Shown one piece after another: positions 14,667 through 46,182 of a DNA stretch of 52,751 bases; positions within the stretch are counted from its first letter, which is position 1, and each line of letters begins with the position of its first letter. The DNA is from Campylobacteraceae bacterium (lineage in GTDB: Bacteria > Campylobacterota > Campylobacteria > Campylobacterales > Sulfurovaceae), in NCBI GenBank assembly GCA_027038275.1, contig JALVXC010000055.1, forward strand, positions 1 through 52,751, read 5' to 3'. The position numbers were made by a program, and so were the translations under genes. Under the pieces are notes generated by a model. That model saw only the letters and a program-made list of their open reading frames with translations, was not told the DNA's origin and did not search any database.

Positions 14667-14746
14667 TGCTTATTTCATCATACTTAACAGGAATAGATGA
14701 ATTTATAGAGTTTTCAGATAGAAAAAATATTAAATTTGAGGTTTAA
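14666..14746 (+). CDS. Small ORF (26 codons) bridging the membrane protein and WYL regulator
   Basis: A GTG at 14666 overlaps the preceding stop (TAGTG), and its TAA overlaps the WYL start ATG at 14746 (TAATG). The product would be acidic and protein-like (GIDEFIEFSDRKN within it). It fills the gap between the two genes exactly. It may be a coupling peptide or the tail of a degraded gene; there is no clear ribosome site. Confidence 0.3.
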   Translation: MLISSYLTGIDEFIEFSDRKNIKFEV

Positions 14747-15669
14747 TGATGAGCCAAAAATCAAGCCTATACCGAACCATTGAAATCTTAAAACGCCTAA
14801 ATGAAAGCAAACAACTCTGTGTAACTAGACTAGCCCAAGAGTATGAAGTAAGCGAACGAACTATTCGCCGTGACTTTGAGCTAATTCGTGAACTCTTTGG
14901 TGACTTTATGAGTAAAGAGGGTGAATGCTATAGAGCATATAAAAAAGTTCTACTCCAAGATGTACTCTCTGCTACAGACCTTATGACACTAGCAAATATT
15001 GTAAATATTTTTGATATTACATCTAAGGAATCTCTCATTACAGAGCAGACCGAAGCACTTATAAAAAAGTCTATGATTGTCTATGACTTTAAGTCACGCC
15101 CTTTTGAAAATATGAGAAACCAAGAGATAATTAAACAACTCGAACATGCCATTAAGTTTAACAAAGAGATAAAGATTGTCTACAAAACAGAACGTACTGT
15201 AAGTAAGCGAAATTTTCACCCCTACAAAATACTTTTTCTAAATGAAAACTTCTATTTAGTAGGTGAAAATGTTAGCAAATCGAACTTTGAATTTTTGCGT
15301 ATCTCTCTAATTGAAGAGGTTAGTTACACTAAAAAAACTTTCTTTGTCCATAAAGATATAGTTGAGTTTATAAAAAAGGTTCAAACACCTTGGGCTGTCT
15401 TTGGAAGAGAAGAGACAACAGTTCGTTTACGTGTTGACTGCTCTATTCGTCGCTACTTTATCTTAAAAAAGTATCTCCCTAGCCAAGAGGTAGTAGCCTA
15501 CTTTGACAATGGAGACATAGAGGTTCAATACAGAGTCTCAAACTTTAAAGAGCTAGAGGAGTTAGTTATAAAATGGTTACCTAAAATTCGTGTTATATAC
15601 CCTCGTCCTTTAAAGAAGATGGTAAAGAGGAGTTTGCAGAAGAAGCTTAAGGGGTTACTAGATTCCTAG
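14746..15669 (+). CDS. WYL-domain transcriptional regulator (YafY/DeoR-like HTH)
   Basis: A 307-residue regulator. The N-terminal winged HTH at residues 9-60 (VTRLAQEYEVSERTIRRDFELI) is followed by a WYL ligand-sensing domain at about 130-205 and a C-terminal dimerisation region (WCX) to the end. WYL regulators often sense nucleic acid or nucleotide ligands and control RNA-repair and phage-defence genes (family knowledge). It is the only regulator in the island and so the natural candidate for binding the 14-bp elements before rtcB1 and rtcB2 (inference). Its last 4 bases overlap the end of the Uma2 gene on the other strand. Confidence 0.88.
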   Translation: MMSQKSSLYRTIEILKRLNESKQLCVTRLAQEYEVSERTIRRDFELIRELFGDFMSKEGECYRAYKKVLLQDVLSATDLMTLANIVNIFDITSKESLITEQTEALIKKSMIVYDFKSRPFENMRNQEIIKQLEHAIKFNKEIKIVYKTERTVSKRNFHPYKILFLNENFYLVGENVSKSNFEFLRISLIEEVSYTKKTFFVHKDIVEFIKKVQTPWAVFGREETTVRLRVDCSIRRYFILKKYLPSQEVVAYFDNGDIEVQYRVSNFKELEELVIKWLPKIRVIYPRPLKKMVKRSLQKKLKGLLDS

Positions 15670-32649: not shown

Positions 32650-32685
32650 TTTTGTAGGGTGCGATAGCAATCGCACCCTACAAAA
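32650..32685. repeat. Palindromic TAGGGTG-family repeat, perfect 16-bp stem
   Basis: TTTTGTAGGGTGCGAT and its perfect complement flank an AGCA loop. Further out, TCCATTGA and TCAATGG are also inverted. It lies between rnhA and rnc and may act as a terminator or RNA processing site as well as being a dispersed repeat. Confidence 0.75.
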
Positions 32686-41052: not shown

Positions 41053-41739
41053 CTATTTTTTACCTTTTAATTGTAGTTTTTTTCTTAGAAAATAGACTAT
41101 CATTTCACAATAGGGTTCAAACTTGCCATTATGTTTCTCTTGATAATAGGTTAAAATCTTTTGAATATTTGCAATAGTATAGCCTTTTGATTTCAAGTTT
41201 TGCATAACTCTATCATAAACATGTTTTCTATTTTTTTGTAAAATATCAACATTGAGGTTTAATACACTATTGAGTTCATTGTCAATATTTTTATCTTTGG
41301 AGTGAATGGCAATAGCTTTTGCAGACTTTTTATATACTATTTTCTTCTCAATAGAGGTTAAAAGCTCAATGTAGTGTAACTCCTCTTCACCTTTTTTACC
41401 GTCACAAAATTGATTTTTATGTTTTTGACCTTCGCCACCACTACAAGCTATAAAAAGATTTTGATACTCTATTTGAAGTTTTCTATACTTTGTTTGTGGT
41501 TTAAAGTGTTCTATCTTGCTATTATCACAATCTATGCGACTCATACAGTAACAGCAGATATAACCTTGCTCTTGAAGTAGTTGTTTCCTTAGATTTTCAG
41601 CTCTATCTTCTCTACACTGCTCTTTTGTTTTCTCTTTAAAATCTTCATAAATATTTGAGTCTTCTAAATTTTTATGAGAGATTGTACTTCGATAAGCAGT
41701 TAAACTTTTTGGCTCTTTTGTCTTAATTATCTTCTTCAA
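41053..41739 (-). CDS. ptuB: PtuB-like HNH endonuclease (Septu system effector)
   Basis: A 228-residue HNH nuclease of the TIGR02646/PtuB kind. Zinc and HNH motifs are ICCYCMSRI (62-69), SKIEHFKPQT (74-83) and QNLFIACSGGEG (93-104), followed by a cysteine (CDGKKG, 112-117). In Septu defence PtuB is the DNA-cutting partner of the ATPase PtuA. The gene overlaps the PtuA-like gene by 17 bases, so the two are translated together. No reverse transcriptase lies nearby, so this is stand-alone Septu rather than an Ec78-type retron. It ends exactly at the nnr start codon, which is unusual. Confidence 0.8.
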   Translation of the reverse strand: MKKIIKTKEPKSLTAYRSTISHKNLEDSNIYEDFKEKTKEQCREDRAENLRKQLLQEQGYICCYCMSRIDCDNSKIEHFKPQTKYRKLQIEYQNLFIACSGGEGQKHKNQFCDGKKGEEELHYIELLTSIEKKIVYKKSAKAIAIHSKDKNIDNELNSVLNLNVDILQKNRKHVYDRVMQNLKSKGYTIANIQKILTYYQEKHNGKFEPYCEMIVYFLRKKLQLKGKK

Positions 41740-42835
41740 AATCTATCCGTTCAAAAGCTAAATCATTTCTAAGAGCTAAAATATCTTTATCGTTCTCTCC
41801 TATTACATACTCTAGCTTATCTAACGCACTCTCTGCTTTATCGAACTCTTGATTATTAATTAGCTCTTGTATCTCATTAAATCGTTTTGTTATTTTAGGT
41901 ACTCTTGTATCTGTTACACCCATCTGTTCTAAAACCCACTCTATATCTCGACCGTAAGCTGTAATATTCTCTATAGCTTCTATTTTTCCCTCTTTATTTT
42001 TTATTAAAAAGCGTAAATATTTATTTTTAGCACTTGATATAATATGTGGCGAATGTGTAGCTATAATGATTTGACAGTTATTTTGTTTTGCAAAGTTTTC
42101 ATAGATTTTTAGGACTTTGTTTTGCCAACTTGGGTGTAGGGAGAGTTCGGGTTCGTCTATTAGGATTACCTTATCTTTATAATCTTGGAAATATAGATAT
42201 AAAACTTTTGAGAGTAGTGTTTTTTCTCCTGTTGAGAGTTCATCAATGGTAAACAGAGTTCTATTATCATTTTTCTTTGATGTATAATAATATTCTTCAT
42301 TTTCACTACTTGAAAACCAAACATTATCATCTTTATCTAAATGGCTATATTTAAAACTAATATCTAAATCATCAAAAATATTTTTCATATAGTTATGAAA
42401 ATGTTCGGTTATTTCACTTGGACGATAATCTTTTTCTTTTAAGAAGAAGTAGAATGTATTTACAAATTCTTCTGCAACTTTTTTTGTATCGTCTATTCCT
42501 GATGAAAAATAAATAATATTTTTAGTAAAATAATCCATATCATTCTCAGAAGAAAATTGAGCTAACTGTCTTATCTCATTATTTATATTAATAAATTCAT
42601 AAATATCTTTTTTAGATAATGGTCGTCTTAAAGTATACTCTCTTCCAAAATTTTCATGAAATATTGACTCTACAGCTTTAATACGACCTATAAGTTCAAA
42701 AAGCGAAGTCTTCCCACTCCCATTAACCCCAGCCAAAACAACAATAGGCAAAGCCTCATCATTCTCATCCACAAAACTAATATCAAAATCTTTAAACATC
42801 TTATAATCGTCTATATGCAGTTTTCGTAGCTTCAT
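41723..42835 (-). CDS. ptuA: PtuA-like ATPase (Septu system)
   Basis: A 370-residue AAA/ABC-type ATPase. Walker A is GVNGSGKT (36-43), the signature LSTGEK is at 200-205, Walker B is VILIDEPELSLHP (223-235) and the H-loop is ATHSPH (259-264), so all catalytic elements are intact. The C-terminal helical region (about 300-370) may contact PtuB. In Septu, PtuA senses the infection and licenses the nuclease. The ribosome site AAGGA directly abuts the TGTAG end of a palindromic repeat at 42846-42870. Confidence 0.78.
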   Translation of the reverse strand: MKLRKLHIDDYKMFKDFDISFVDENDEALPIVVLAGVNGSGKTSLFELIGRIKAVESIFHENFGREYTLRRPLSKKDIYEFININNEIRQLAQFSSENDMDYFTKNIIYFSSGIDDTKKVAEEFVNTFYFFLKEKDYRPSEITEHFHNYMKNIFDDLDISFKYSHLDKDDNVWFSSSENEEYYYTSKKNDNRTLFTIDELSTGEKTLLSKVLYLYFQDYKDKVILIDEPELSLHPSWQNKVLKIYENFAKQNNCQIIIATHSPHIISSAKNKYLRFLIKNKEGKIEAIENITAYGRDIEWVLEQMGVTDTRVPKITKRFNEIQELINNQEFDKAESALDKLEYVIGENDKDILALRNDLAFERIDFEEDN

Positions 42836-42845
42836 TGGAGTTCCT

Positions 42846-42870
42846 TGTAGGGTGCGATTGCTATCGCACC
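42846..42870. repeat. Palindromic TAGGGTG-family repeat at the 5' end of ptuA
   Basis: GGTGCGAT and ATCGCACC form an 8-bp stem with a TGCT loop and a TGTAG outer end. It begins 11 bases upstream of the ptuA ATG, so its edge makes part of the ribosome-site region. A second, inverted copy follows 42 bases away. Confidence 0.7.
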
Positions 42871-42912
42871 TTTAAAATTATTTGCACAAATAAAACCTTT
42901 TATCTTTAAAAT

Positions 42913-42936
42913 GGTGCGATGGCAATCGCACCCTAC
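42913..42936. repeat. Palindromic TAGGGTG-family repeat, inverted partner
   Basis: GGTGCGAT and ATCGCACC with a GGCA loop, then CTAC. The orientation is opposite to the copy at 42846-42870, with the same stem sequence. The pair could form a larger cruciform-like structure between ptuA and rpsU. Confidence 0.7.
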
Positions 42937-43313: not shown

Positions 43314-43811
43314 CTACTTTTCCCGTTTACAAACAAAATGAACCACCTCTTTTCCAATGCTACTAGCATACTCCACCACATCACCTGTACCTCCAAGTTT
43401 TCCATTGAAAGTACCATCCCAAAGGGCTAACAATACATCTGAGTTATCTACCACATATCGCCCTACATCTACATAGCCACTCTTACTTACACGTTTCACA
43501 GCAAAAACAGAGTCTGCTTTTGTCAAAAAATCTAAAAACTCCTCTTTAGAGTTCTCATCAAAATCCTCCTCATAACGCTCTTGCTCAAATGGCATAGGTA
43601 CAACCAAGCTCAAATGTCCATTCTCTTTTTGCAGTTCTAAAAATATCTCTGCAACAAATCGGTCAGCCCCATCTGCCAAAGGAGAGAGCAGAACAAGCTC
43701 TTCACTATTTTCTAACTGTTCCTTAAAGAAGTTAAAAACTTTTTGTCTTAGCTCTTTAGTCTCTATCATGTCCCTGTGTCCTGTTATGGCTATGGTTGTT
43801 ATCTTTTTCAT
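43314..43811 (-). CDS. SLOG-fold (YpsA/DprA-like Rossmann) protein
   Basis: A 165-residue cytoplasmic protein. The start TTIAITGHRD (residues 4-13), the central LSPLADGADRFVAEI (43-57) and the later NSDVLLALWDGTFNGKLGGTGDVVEYA (about 127-153) fit the SLOG superfamily. SLOG domains bind or make nucleotide-derived ligands and often serve as sensors in defence or stress systems. A specific role is not known. Its promoter (TATAAT at 43842-43847 plus a tandem repeat upstream) is nearly the same as that of the next gene upstream. Confidence 0.7.
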   Translation of the reverse strand: MKKITTIAITGHRDMIETKELRQKVFNFFKEQLENSEELVLLSPLADGADRFVAEIFLELQKENGHLSLVVPMPFEQERYEEDFDENSKEEFLDFLTKADSVFAVKRVSKSGYVDVGRYVVDNSDVLLALWDGTFNGKLGGTGDVVEYASSIGKEVVHFVCKREK

Positions 43812-43841: not shown

Positions 43842-43877
43842 ATTATAACTTATGATATTTGGACTATTTGGATTTTA
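43842..43877 (-). promoter_or_regulatory. Promoter with tandem TCCAAAT repeats before the SLOG gene
   Basis: Reading toward the gene: AATCCAAATAGTCCAAAT, a 9-base spacer and TATAAT, 30 bases before the ATG. In all, 30 of 35 bases match the promoter at 44860-44895. Confidence 0.6.
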
Positions 43878-43903
43878 ACTATTAATATAAAAATCCATCG
43901 TAT

Positions 43904-44830
43904 TCATTCTACACTCAATTCATTACTATAGATATAAGAGTAAATTCTCTCTTTTATCATGCTACATCTATTGGGAGCTTTCTCTTTTACTAAATCATTA
44001 TTTTCATTATAGATGTACTCTACTTTGGTTGCTCCATGAATAGCCATAGGTCTAATATTTTTCCCTCTTAAGCTTTCCCATCTCTCCTCTATTTTATTTC
44101 CTCGTTCATCATATTTACGATAAGTAATAAAGTGTGTATGAGGATGAGAAGCATCATAATCTTTAGCTCTTTCTCTAGCAATAATTTTATGCTTATCATT
44201 CAATGTAACAGGGTAAAAATTTATATAATTCAACTTCTCTTCTTTGATGATATTACTATTTTTATCGTAACTATAGAGCATAATAATTTGTCTTCCTTTA
44301 GAACGATTTTCATCATCTTTAACAACTTCTTCAACTCTCTTAAAAACTACTCTTCCTTGTTTATCATATCTGTTTTCTATAACTTTAAAGGGTTTTGAGT
44401 GAATATTAACTTTAGGCTCTAAAAGAAAGTTTCTATGGTCATAAACTCTTTTTTCTACTCTTCCATGGTGATTTTTTTCAAAATAGACAGGTGTTATTGT
44501 TTCAGTCTTATAGTCCCATGCTTTAACTAACATAGAGACTCTCTTTTTTTCTCCTTGCTTAGAGACAACTTCCACACTTACATAGTGTTTCCCTTTAGAA
44601 AAAGAGGCTTTTAGTGGGTTGGTACTTCCCAAGGTTCTATTTCCCTCTTTCCAAACATAACTGTAGCTACTATTGACATCTTTTGATACAACATTAACAT
44701 AAAGAGTTACATTACTATCTCGTAAGACATCTCTCTGTTTTGCAACTTTAAGGCTAAATGTGTCTGCACTAAGAAAAGTACTCGATAGAGTTAGTATTGT
44801 GATGAATTTAATTAATGATGATTTTTTCAT
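43904..44830 (-). CDS. Exported protein with YD/RHS-like repeats
   Basis: The start at 44830 gives a clean signal peptide (MKKSSLIKFITILTLSSTFLSA) after GGAAAAG; an upstream in-frame start adds 10 residues. An Ig-like segment at about 25-105 (SYVWKEGNRTLGSTNPLKASFSKGKH-type) is followed by repeats resembling RHS/YD strands (KVIENRYDKQGRVVFKRVEE, HFITYRKYDERGNKIEERWE, KVEYIYNENNDLVKEK). It is much shorter than toxin-bearing RHS proteins and has no C-terminal toxin domain. It ends SIYSN-type after two cysteine-poor strands. Its role is unknown, perhaps at the cell surface. Confidence 0.65.
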   Translation of the reverse strand: MKKSSLIKFITILTLSSTFLSADTFSLKVAKQRDVLRDSNVTLYVNVVSKDVNSSYSYVWKEGNRTLGSTNPLKASFSKGKHYVSVEVVSKQGEKKRVSMLVKAWDYKTETITPVYFEKNHHGRVEKRVYDHRNFLLEPKVNIHSKPFKVIENRYDKQGRVVFKRVEEVVKDDENRSKGRQIIMLYSYDKNSNIIKEEKLNYINFYPVTLNDKHKIIARERAKDYDASHPHTHFITYRKYDERGNKIEERWESLRGKNIRPMAIHGATKVEYIYNENNDLVKEKAPNRCSMIKERIYSYIYSNELSVE

Positions 44831-44859
44831 AAGCTTTTCCTTTTTTATTAGATAAATCA

Positions 44860-44895
44860 ATTATAGCTTATTGAATTTGGACTATTTGGACTTTA
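44860..44895 (-). promoter_or_regulatory. Promoter with tandem AGTCCAAAT repeats before the 44830 gene
   Basis: Reading toward the gene: AGTCCAAATAGTCCAAAT, a 9-base spacer and TATAAT (44865-44860), 29 bases before the ATG. It is a near copy of the SLOG promoter at 43842-43877. It directly abuts the palindromic repeat at 44896. Confidence 0.6.
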
Positions 44896-44920
44896 GTGTT
44901 TTCAGAGGAAAACACCCTAC
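44896..44920. repeat. Palindromic TAGGGTG-family repeat at the end of the DUF4143 ATPase gene
   Basis: GTGTTTTC and GAAAACAC with an AGAG loop, plus the conserved CCTAC end. The stop codon of the ATPase gene (44917-44919) lies inside the conserved end. The stem sequence is almost identical to the copy at 17574-17599. Confidence 0.65.
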
Positions 44921-46182
44921 TCCCAAAAATACTTCCAAAAAGGAACAACCTCTATTTTCTCTATTGACTCCTCTTGATTATATGTCAAAAGTATCTGCTT
45001 ACTCACTTTAAACTTCTTAGCAATACTCAACAAACCTTTAACCTCTCGCTCTTGATTACCACTATGAAGCTCATAACAGACCTGAATAGCTAAAAGTTCA
45101 CTCTCTTTTTTAACCAAAAAATCACACTCAAAAGAGCCATCGTTAAAGACAAAAATCTCATAACCTCTCTTTTGTAACTCACTATAGACAAGATTTTCAA
45201 AGAGTTTCCCTCGGTTTTGTGAAAAACGAAAAGAGATATTTCCCAAAAAACCATTGTCTATAAGGTAACCCTTTTTTTTGGAACGAACTTGACCTTTTAG
45301 TGAGTAGGAGAACTGTTTTAACTCTTGGTAGAGATAGGCATCTTCCAACGCATAGATGTAATTTTTAATGCTATTTTCATTAATACCCAATGCTTTAGAG
45401 ATAGTACTATAAGCATAGAGTGAAGCCCCATTACTTATGAGGTAGTTGCTCAACTCTTTAAACTGTTTAACCTCTCGTATGCCATGATTTGCCACACAAT
45501 CTTTTAAGATTATGGTCTCATAGTAGTTCAAAATTAACGCTCGTTGGTACTCTTTGTCCTCTTTTTTATAGACCTCTGCAAATGAGCCAAACTCCATCAT
45601 CTTATCGACAATATTTAAGACTTTTGGGGTACTATCAAGTAGGTCAAAGTAGCTGTTTATCTTCTCTATAGTATATATCTCTTTAAGTGAAAGGGGGTAA
45701 ACAACAGTTTTTAAGTACCGACCTGAAAGAGTCACAGCATACTCTGAACTCAAAAGTGAAGAGTTAGAGCCTGTCACATAGATTTTCTTGACTACCTCAT
45801 TGTCATAAATGGCTTTAATAAACTTCTCCCACATCTCTACATTTTGAATCTCATCAAAAAAGACATAGTCTGGTTTGACACCATTGATTTTTTCAGAGAG
45901 TTCTAAAAGAGTATAAAGCTTTTTAGAGTCACTCCAAAGCTCAGAAAAATAGGGGTCATCAAAGTTAATGTAGAGAATAGAACGAGGGTTTACTTTTTGC
46001 ATTAGATGGTTAATAAGAAGTTTAAATATGGTCGATTTACCAGAGCGACGAATACCTTGAATGACCTCTATCTCTTTGTAATCTATCTGTTTTATGAGTT
46101 TTGAAGCAATATCTCTGCCAAAAAGCCCCTCATAGGGTTGTGCTTTCCAATGTCTGTTGTGTGATATTATTGCTTTTTCCAT
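44917..46182 (-). CDS. AAA_14/DUF4143 family ATPase
   Basis: A 421-residue ATPase. Walker A is GIRRSGKST (43-51) and Walker B is YVFFDEIQNVEMWEKF (about 106-121), followed by the GSNSSLLSSEYAVTLSGR sensor region. The DUF4143 restriction-endonuclease-like C-terminal domain (about 210-390) includes SFECDFLVKKESELLAIQVCYE, an E/D-x-K-like site. This family is common, often in multiple copies, and of unknown role. The last codons and stop lie in a palindromic repeat. An 18-bp palindrome sits 27 bases upstream of the start. Confidence 0.85.
   Translation of the reverse strand: MEKAIISHNRHWKAQPYEGLFGRDIASKLIKQIDYKEIEVIQGIRRSGKSTIFKLLINHLMQKVNPRSILYINFDDPYFSELWSDSKKLYTLLELSEKINGVKPDYVFFDEIQNVEMWEKFIKAIYDNEVVKKIYVTGSNSSLLSSEYAVTLSGRYLKTVVYPLSLKEIYTIEKINSYFDLLDSTPKVLNIVDKMMEFGSFAEVYKKEDKEYQRALILNYYETIILKDCVANHGIREVKQFKELSNYLISNGASLYAYSTISKALGINENSIKNYIYALEDAYLYQELKQFSYSLKGQVRSKKKGYLIDNGFLGNISFRFSQNRGKLFENLVYSELQKRGYEIFVFNDGSFECDFLVKKESELLAIQVCYELHSGNQEREVKGLLSIAKKFKVSKQILLTYNQEESIEKIEVVPFWKYFWE

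Follow-up and report, generated by a model that had tools for sequence, protein, structure and literature searches.

Two neighboring genes on the minus strand of a contig from a Campylobacteraceae bacterium (GenBank assembly GCA_027038275.1, contig JALVXC010000055.1), one for a SLOG protein and one for a different, probably exported protein, are preceded by nearly the same promoter. The question raised by this locus is what the likeness reflects: shared control, a recent duplication, or a promoter form that is general in this organism. We analyzed the whole 52,751-nucleotide (nt) stretch, called the window here, together with the rest of the genome and 175 genomes of the family. By its gene content, the genome looks like that of a Sulfurovum-like member of the Campylobacterota. 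The comparisons make it likely that one operator-promoter, present here in two copies, serves a dispersed regulon of TIR/SLOG conflict-type loci.

The paired elements and their distribution

Each element consists of a direct repeat, TCCAAATAG followed by TCCAAAT, a 9-nt spacer, and a TATAAT box. Operator-promoter 1 (43842..43872, minus strand) reads TCCAAATAGTCCAAAT-ATCATAAGT-TATAAT from 43872 to 43842 and lies 30 nt 5' of the SLOG ATG (43811). Operator-promoter 2 (44860..44890, minus strand) reads TCCAAATAGTCCAAAT-TCAATAAGC-TATAAT from 44890 to 44860 and lies 29 nt 5' of the neighbor's ATG (44830). The tandem unit, the 9-base spacer, TATAAT, the match at 30 of 35 bases, and both distances had been described in an earlier note on this DNA, and all of them were confirmed, on the minus strand. 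Pairwise comparison of the 100-nt upstream regions of the window ranked this pair first by ungapped match over 35 bases; in 66,000 pairs simulated with matched dinucleotide composition, the maximum was 28/35.

The exact 16-mer TCCAAATAGTCCAAAT occurs only twice in the 2.54-Mb genome, at the two window sites; as a genus-wide element it was rejected, with a single further copy found, in the related genome G030. The 16-mer belongs to a more general form, TCCAAAwArTCCAAAw, which is represented by additional copies in the genome. The relaxed pattern TCCAAAnAnTCCAAA-N10-TAnnnT had seven exact matches in the genome versus none for a reversed control; across the 175 genomes of the family, it had 12 matches versus 1 for the control, 7 of the 12 being those in this genome. 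When the spacer was left free between 5 and 15 nt and both TCCAAA units were kept intact, seven sites in the genome had a 9-nt spacer, one had 8 nt (locus C28), and one had 14 nt (C5).

Near-matches to the 16-mer include intergenic sites of the same layout, while those on C44, C89, C103, C167, and C2 were rejected as lying inside coding frames. With at most two mismatches allowed, 30 genomic matches were obtained. Ten of them lie between genes and point toward a start codon in the same orientation, and all ten are in loci C33, C55 (the window), and C65; the start codon is 25 to 38 nt downstream, with one at 76 nt, and one of the starts belongs to a 37-residue membrane peptide. Most of the other 20 fall within coding frames, and not one combines an intergenic position with a co-oriented start in the next 90 nt; one does have a start at that distance but sits inside another reading frame. 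Together with the C28 site and its 8-nt spacer, there are 11 sites in four loci, every one of them intergenic and in the orientation of a start codon 25 to 76 nt away. The repeat consists of two TCCAAA units in head-to-tail order at a period of 9 bp and is followed by a -10 box of TATAAT, TATACT, or TAAACT. Information content is highest at the CC of the two units (1.8 bits in each C column), and a TG at the extended -10 position is missing from both window sites and most of the others.

In two related species, SLOG orthologues have this architecture upstream as well. In G030, the orthologue (60% identity) is preceded by TTCAAACTGTTCAAAT-N9-TATAAT, and in G021 (53% identity) by TCCAAAAAGTCCAAAA-N8-TATACT; shuffled sequences produced any such architecture at rates of 0.4 to 1.2% each for G030, G021, and the SLOG paralogue in C33 of the genome studied here. 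A second, divergent site in G030, TTCAAATCGTTCAAAT-N9-TACAAT, precedes a 97-residue exported protein. Both sites of the G030 locus carry TTC instead of TCC in both repeat halves, a concerted change expected of an operator that follows its regulator. In G008, the site is kept before a homologue of the C65 exported gene, and in G021 a near-identical operator-promoter (L116 278-400) stands before a 40-residue remnant of the window's exported protein (its first 18 and last 22 residues, in frame), followed by an RHS/PKD-repeat exported protein. The gene order in G021 is TPR-S, operator, SLOG, pssA (L115 4706-5300). In C28 (L048 2978-3030), TPR-S is followed directly by pssA with the flank TAAATAATCTAAAATAGGATAGAATA conserved; this matching flank without an insert indicates that SLOG and its operator are absent there, while the window holds SLOG with its operator.

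Genes downstream of the element and around it

Domains downstream of the sites were assigned by profile searches; the WD40, lipoprotein, ExbB/ExbD, and C28 TIR labels were read from the sequence. In C33, one site precedes the 37-residue membrane peptide, a 102-residue exported protein, and a TIR-caspase protein; another precedes a SLOG protein that shares 39% identity with the one in the window, together with a TPR-S protein; a third has a TIR-nSTAND1-TPR protein downstream, led by a 119-residue exported protein; and further sites precede other exported proteins. The SLOG and TIR-caspase genes of C33 lie side by side, each with its own operator. In C65, the sites precede a 101-residue basic protein, an exported WD40-like protein, and a row of exported proteins, behind which come ExbB/ExbD-like proteins (assigned by eye) and one TIR protein. 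The C28 site precedes a 53-residue lipoprotein-like peptide and a TIR-ATPase-like protein. The downstream set thus comprises SLOG, TPR-S, TIR, Peptidase_C14, nSTAND1, WD40-like, and small exported proteins. For the most part, the element precedes TIR/SLOG/caspase/STAND conflict-type loci, usually led by a small exported or membrane protein. The TIR-caspase gene is separate from the window SLOG gene, and the shared operator is the sole link between them.

The window SLOG protein (43314..43811, minus strand; 165 residues) is of the YspA type (PF06908; Pfam E value of 2.7e-10) and passes the gathering score of that family, with 40.9 bits versus a cutoff of 27.7. Its relatives occur in TIR-caspase-SLOG operons on the plasmids pBS72 of B. 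subtilis and p3 of R. bangladeshense (two records). The neighboring gene (43904..44830, minus strand) encodes a 308-residue protein that appears to be exported, judged from its signal-peptide-like N terminus. The earlier note had called it a YD-repeat protein, a label that the domain searches do not support: neither a YD/RHS repeat nor any other domain was found in it with Pfam or NCBIfam, and its similarity to the G021 RHS-repeat protein is not significant (E value of 0.053).

Between operator-promoter 2 and the gene upstream lies a repeated hairpin, GGTGTTTTCCTCTGAAAACACT (44895..44916, minus strand). It was considered as a part of the operator and rejected, being a dispersed repeat that is present at several other places; it is probably a dispersed palindrome or a terminator outside the operator. 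Palindromes at 32654-32681, 42847-42936, and 44895-44920 share the border GTAGGGTG...CACCCTAC and differ in their inner stems (CGATAGCAATCG, TTTTCCTCTGAAAA); GTAGGGTG has eight copies in the window versus 0.65 expected, and the GGTGTTTTCCCCTGAAAACACC form recurs at several positions elsewhere in the genome. These dispersed palindromes are possibly a family like the repetitive extragenic palindromic elements. No RNA family was found between 42000 and 46500. The gene directly upstream of operator-promoter 2 (44917-46182, minus strand) encodes an AAA_14/DUF4143 ATPase that strongly matches the PADLOC candidate PDC-S01 (E value of 4e-112). Septu-like PtuB (41053-41739, minus strand; PADLOC E value of 4e-56) and PtuA (41723-42835, minus strand; 1e-65) form a pair (41053-42835) near the genes for S21 and SLOG.

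Two features at the other loci were also observed. In C65 (L047 9855-10528) and G030 (L117 771-1393), a small gene and a PIN-type (toxin-antitoxin-like) gene lie directly 5' of the operator, and this pair stands downstream of a TIR-associated gene. Promoters in C33 and C65 (L046 5211, 8771, 8807, and 11466; L047 4845) share downstream letters, TTATCTTAAA or the CTCCTTATCAnnnnAAGGAG hairpin, that the window pair lacks; they are perhaps a second leader element.

A probable shared operator and its possible regulator

The existence of a regulon is well supported by the distribution of the sites and their conservation. The earlier note had envisaged a two-gene regulon with separate promoters; separate promoters under one control fit our findings, and the two-gene size does not, given 11 sites in four loci and more in relatives. 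In the model that we favor, the paired TCCAAA units, arranged head to tail, lie 9 nt (in two cases 8 nt) ahead of a sigma70 -10 box. With the -10 box set at -12 to -7, the repeat would span about -37 to -22, where a -35 element would otherwise be. A single DNA-binding protein, acting as a dimer or cooperatively, may occupy the direct repeat and control about ten transcripts in the four dispersed loci. The set, made up of TIR, TIR-caspase, TIR-nSTAND, SLOG, TPR-S, WD40, and small exported or membrane proteins, would be an immune regulon of the abortive-infection type, and the window SLOG gene with its exported neighbor would be the window's share of it. The regulator is probably a repressor: sitting on the two TCCAAA units, a protein would most simply obstruct polymerase, in the way of CtsR on its operator, and it may be released upon infection or stress.

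A TPR-S gene adjoins SLOG in C33 and in G030, G021, G144, G068, G149, and G096; in C28 and G030, TPR-S and the exported/TIR genes diverge from the region that holds the operator. The TPR-S domain PF20308 scores above its cutoff in C33 (44.6 bits) and G096 (33.3 bits); the other members are subthreshold or missed for PF20308 but align to the C33 and G096 proteins. With these arrangements and a helix-turn-helix (HTH)-like N-terminal segment, the TPR-S protein beside SLOG is the best candidate regulator, a choice that we make tentatively and at clearly less than even confidence. More speculative, and on balance rather improbable, is a wider scheme in which scattered TIR/caspase/SLOG/STAND loci are wired by the common direct repeat into one trans-acting regulon controlled by the HTH-like TPR-S protein that pairs with SLOG. 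In this scheme, TIR would make a nucleotide signal, SLOG/TPR-S would read it, and the signal itself would switch on the set together with its periplasmic proteins.

Several observations weigh against the regulon as we draw it or against TPR-S as its regulator. The element was not found before the SLOG orthologues of G027 and G096 or before the second G030 copy, and the genome was searched by pattern, so that weaker members may be missed. The HTH-like N-terminal segment that precedes the TPR part matches HTH_3 in one of seven members, with an E value of 0.0022 that is below the cutoff; the same member has weak PHROG regulator matches. PDB profile searches of TPR-S gave nothing usable. The choice of repression over activation is based on the position of the repeat.

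Campylobacter promoters have an extended -10 element, TGxTATAAT, without a clear -35 box, and ~89% of C. jejuni promoter regions fit this motif (PMC3656092), whereas the TG is missing from the window sites and most of the others. The same regulon might therefore be served by an activator that binds the direct repeat, either as a class II site or by bending the spacer. We regard this as possible but distinctly the weaker option: several of the -10 boxes are a perfect TATAAT, and the repeat would be centered at about -29, nearer RNA polymerase than class II activator sites usually are. That TCCAAA is the -35 and TAnAnT the -10 of an alternative sigma factor is highly improbable; the fixed distance between the repeat and the -10 box would suit such a promoter, but the -10 is sigma70-like, and a -35 element is not expected to be a whole hexamer in tandem whose two copies are equally conserved and change together in G030.

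It is also very unlikely that we see a general A-tract/periodic promoter of Campylobacterota that needs no regulator, with the similarity due to composition or recent duplication. Composition-matched simulations never reach 30/35, the information in the element peaks at the CC of the two units, and the sites are limited to four loci, mostly TIR/SLOG. A widespread promoter form before unrelated genes, which the earlier note named as the outcome that would speak against a regulon, was rejected on the genome-wide pattern searches, with matches outside the four loci (up to two mismatches) being mostly coding. Its other suggestion, that one promoter is a duplicate, is improbable as a simple recent event: the two sites have different flanks and spacers, and the architecture is kept before SLOG orthologues with other letters (TTCAAA twice). 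Finally, the regulon may be real and its regulator a third protein encoded elsewhere (WYL, Xre, or two-component), with TPR-S only a signaling partner. This reading overlaps with ours, and we give it about an even chance. WYL regulators govern other defense systems (PMC9122601 and PMC9122588), and WYL-type genes, recognized by sequence, lie in the window (14746-15669) and beside the G027 SLOG gene. On the other hand, that G027 SLOG gene has no operator, and a recognizable regulator gene that itself carries the operator was not found.

A shared operator recognized by one protein remains our preferred explanation. Little is known of how TIR/caspase/STAND loci are regulated, and the regulators described act mostly on their own system. 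If our interpretation is true, scattered loci are deployed as one program, and small exported proteins of unassigned function are tied to an immune program; the operator would also provide a sequence handle for finding regulon members and fishing out the regulator.

Comparison with known systems

The closest parallel in operator geometry is CtsR, the class III heat shock repressor of Firmicutes, whose operator A/GGTCAAA-NAN-A/GGTCAAA overlaps the -35/-10 region and is used regulon-wide (PMC12634643). In both, a short unit that ends in CAAA is directly repeated across a NAN linker; here, however, the unit is TCCAAA, the period is 9 bp and not 10 bp, and the targets are TIR/SLOG loci and not clp genes. 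CtsR itself was ruled out as the regulator, since no ctsR gene (PF05848) was found in the genome, while the Lactococcus lactis control was detected.

In gene content, the TIR-caspase-SLOG loci are similar in that pBS72, p3, and C33 each carry SLOG, TIR, and caspase genes side by side. In Thoeris, which pairs TIR with the SIR2-SLOG protein ThsA, the latter is activated by cyclic ADP-ribose (cADPR) isomers (PMC11204291); the window SLOG, in contrast, is a stand-alone YspA-type protein in which a SIR2 domain was not found. TIR, SLOG, STAND, and caspase modules, all present here as well, have been described in nucleoside triphosphate-dependent conflict systems by Kaur et al. 2020 (PMC7159879). The main text of that work does not contain the word "promoter," and so a shared promoter element is not described there; a search of the literature on Sulfurovum and TIR promoters found nothing relevant.

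Transcriptional control of immune genes is known from the WYL-domain regulators BrxR and CapW and from RptR (PMC9122601, PMC9122588, and PMC12255303), and in this respect the present system resembles them. No such regulator gene is linked to the operator here. As described in those reports, BrxR, CapW, and RptR are each tied to their own system or island, whereas here one operator spans several dispersed loci.
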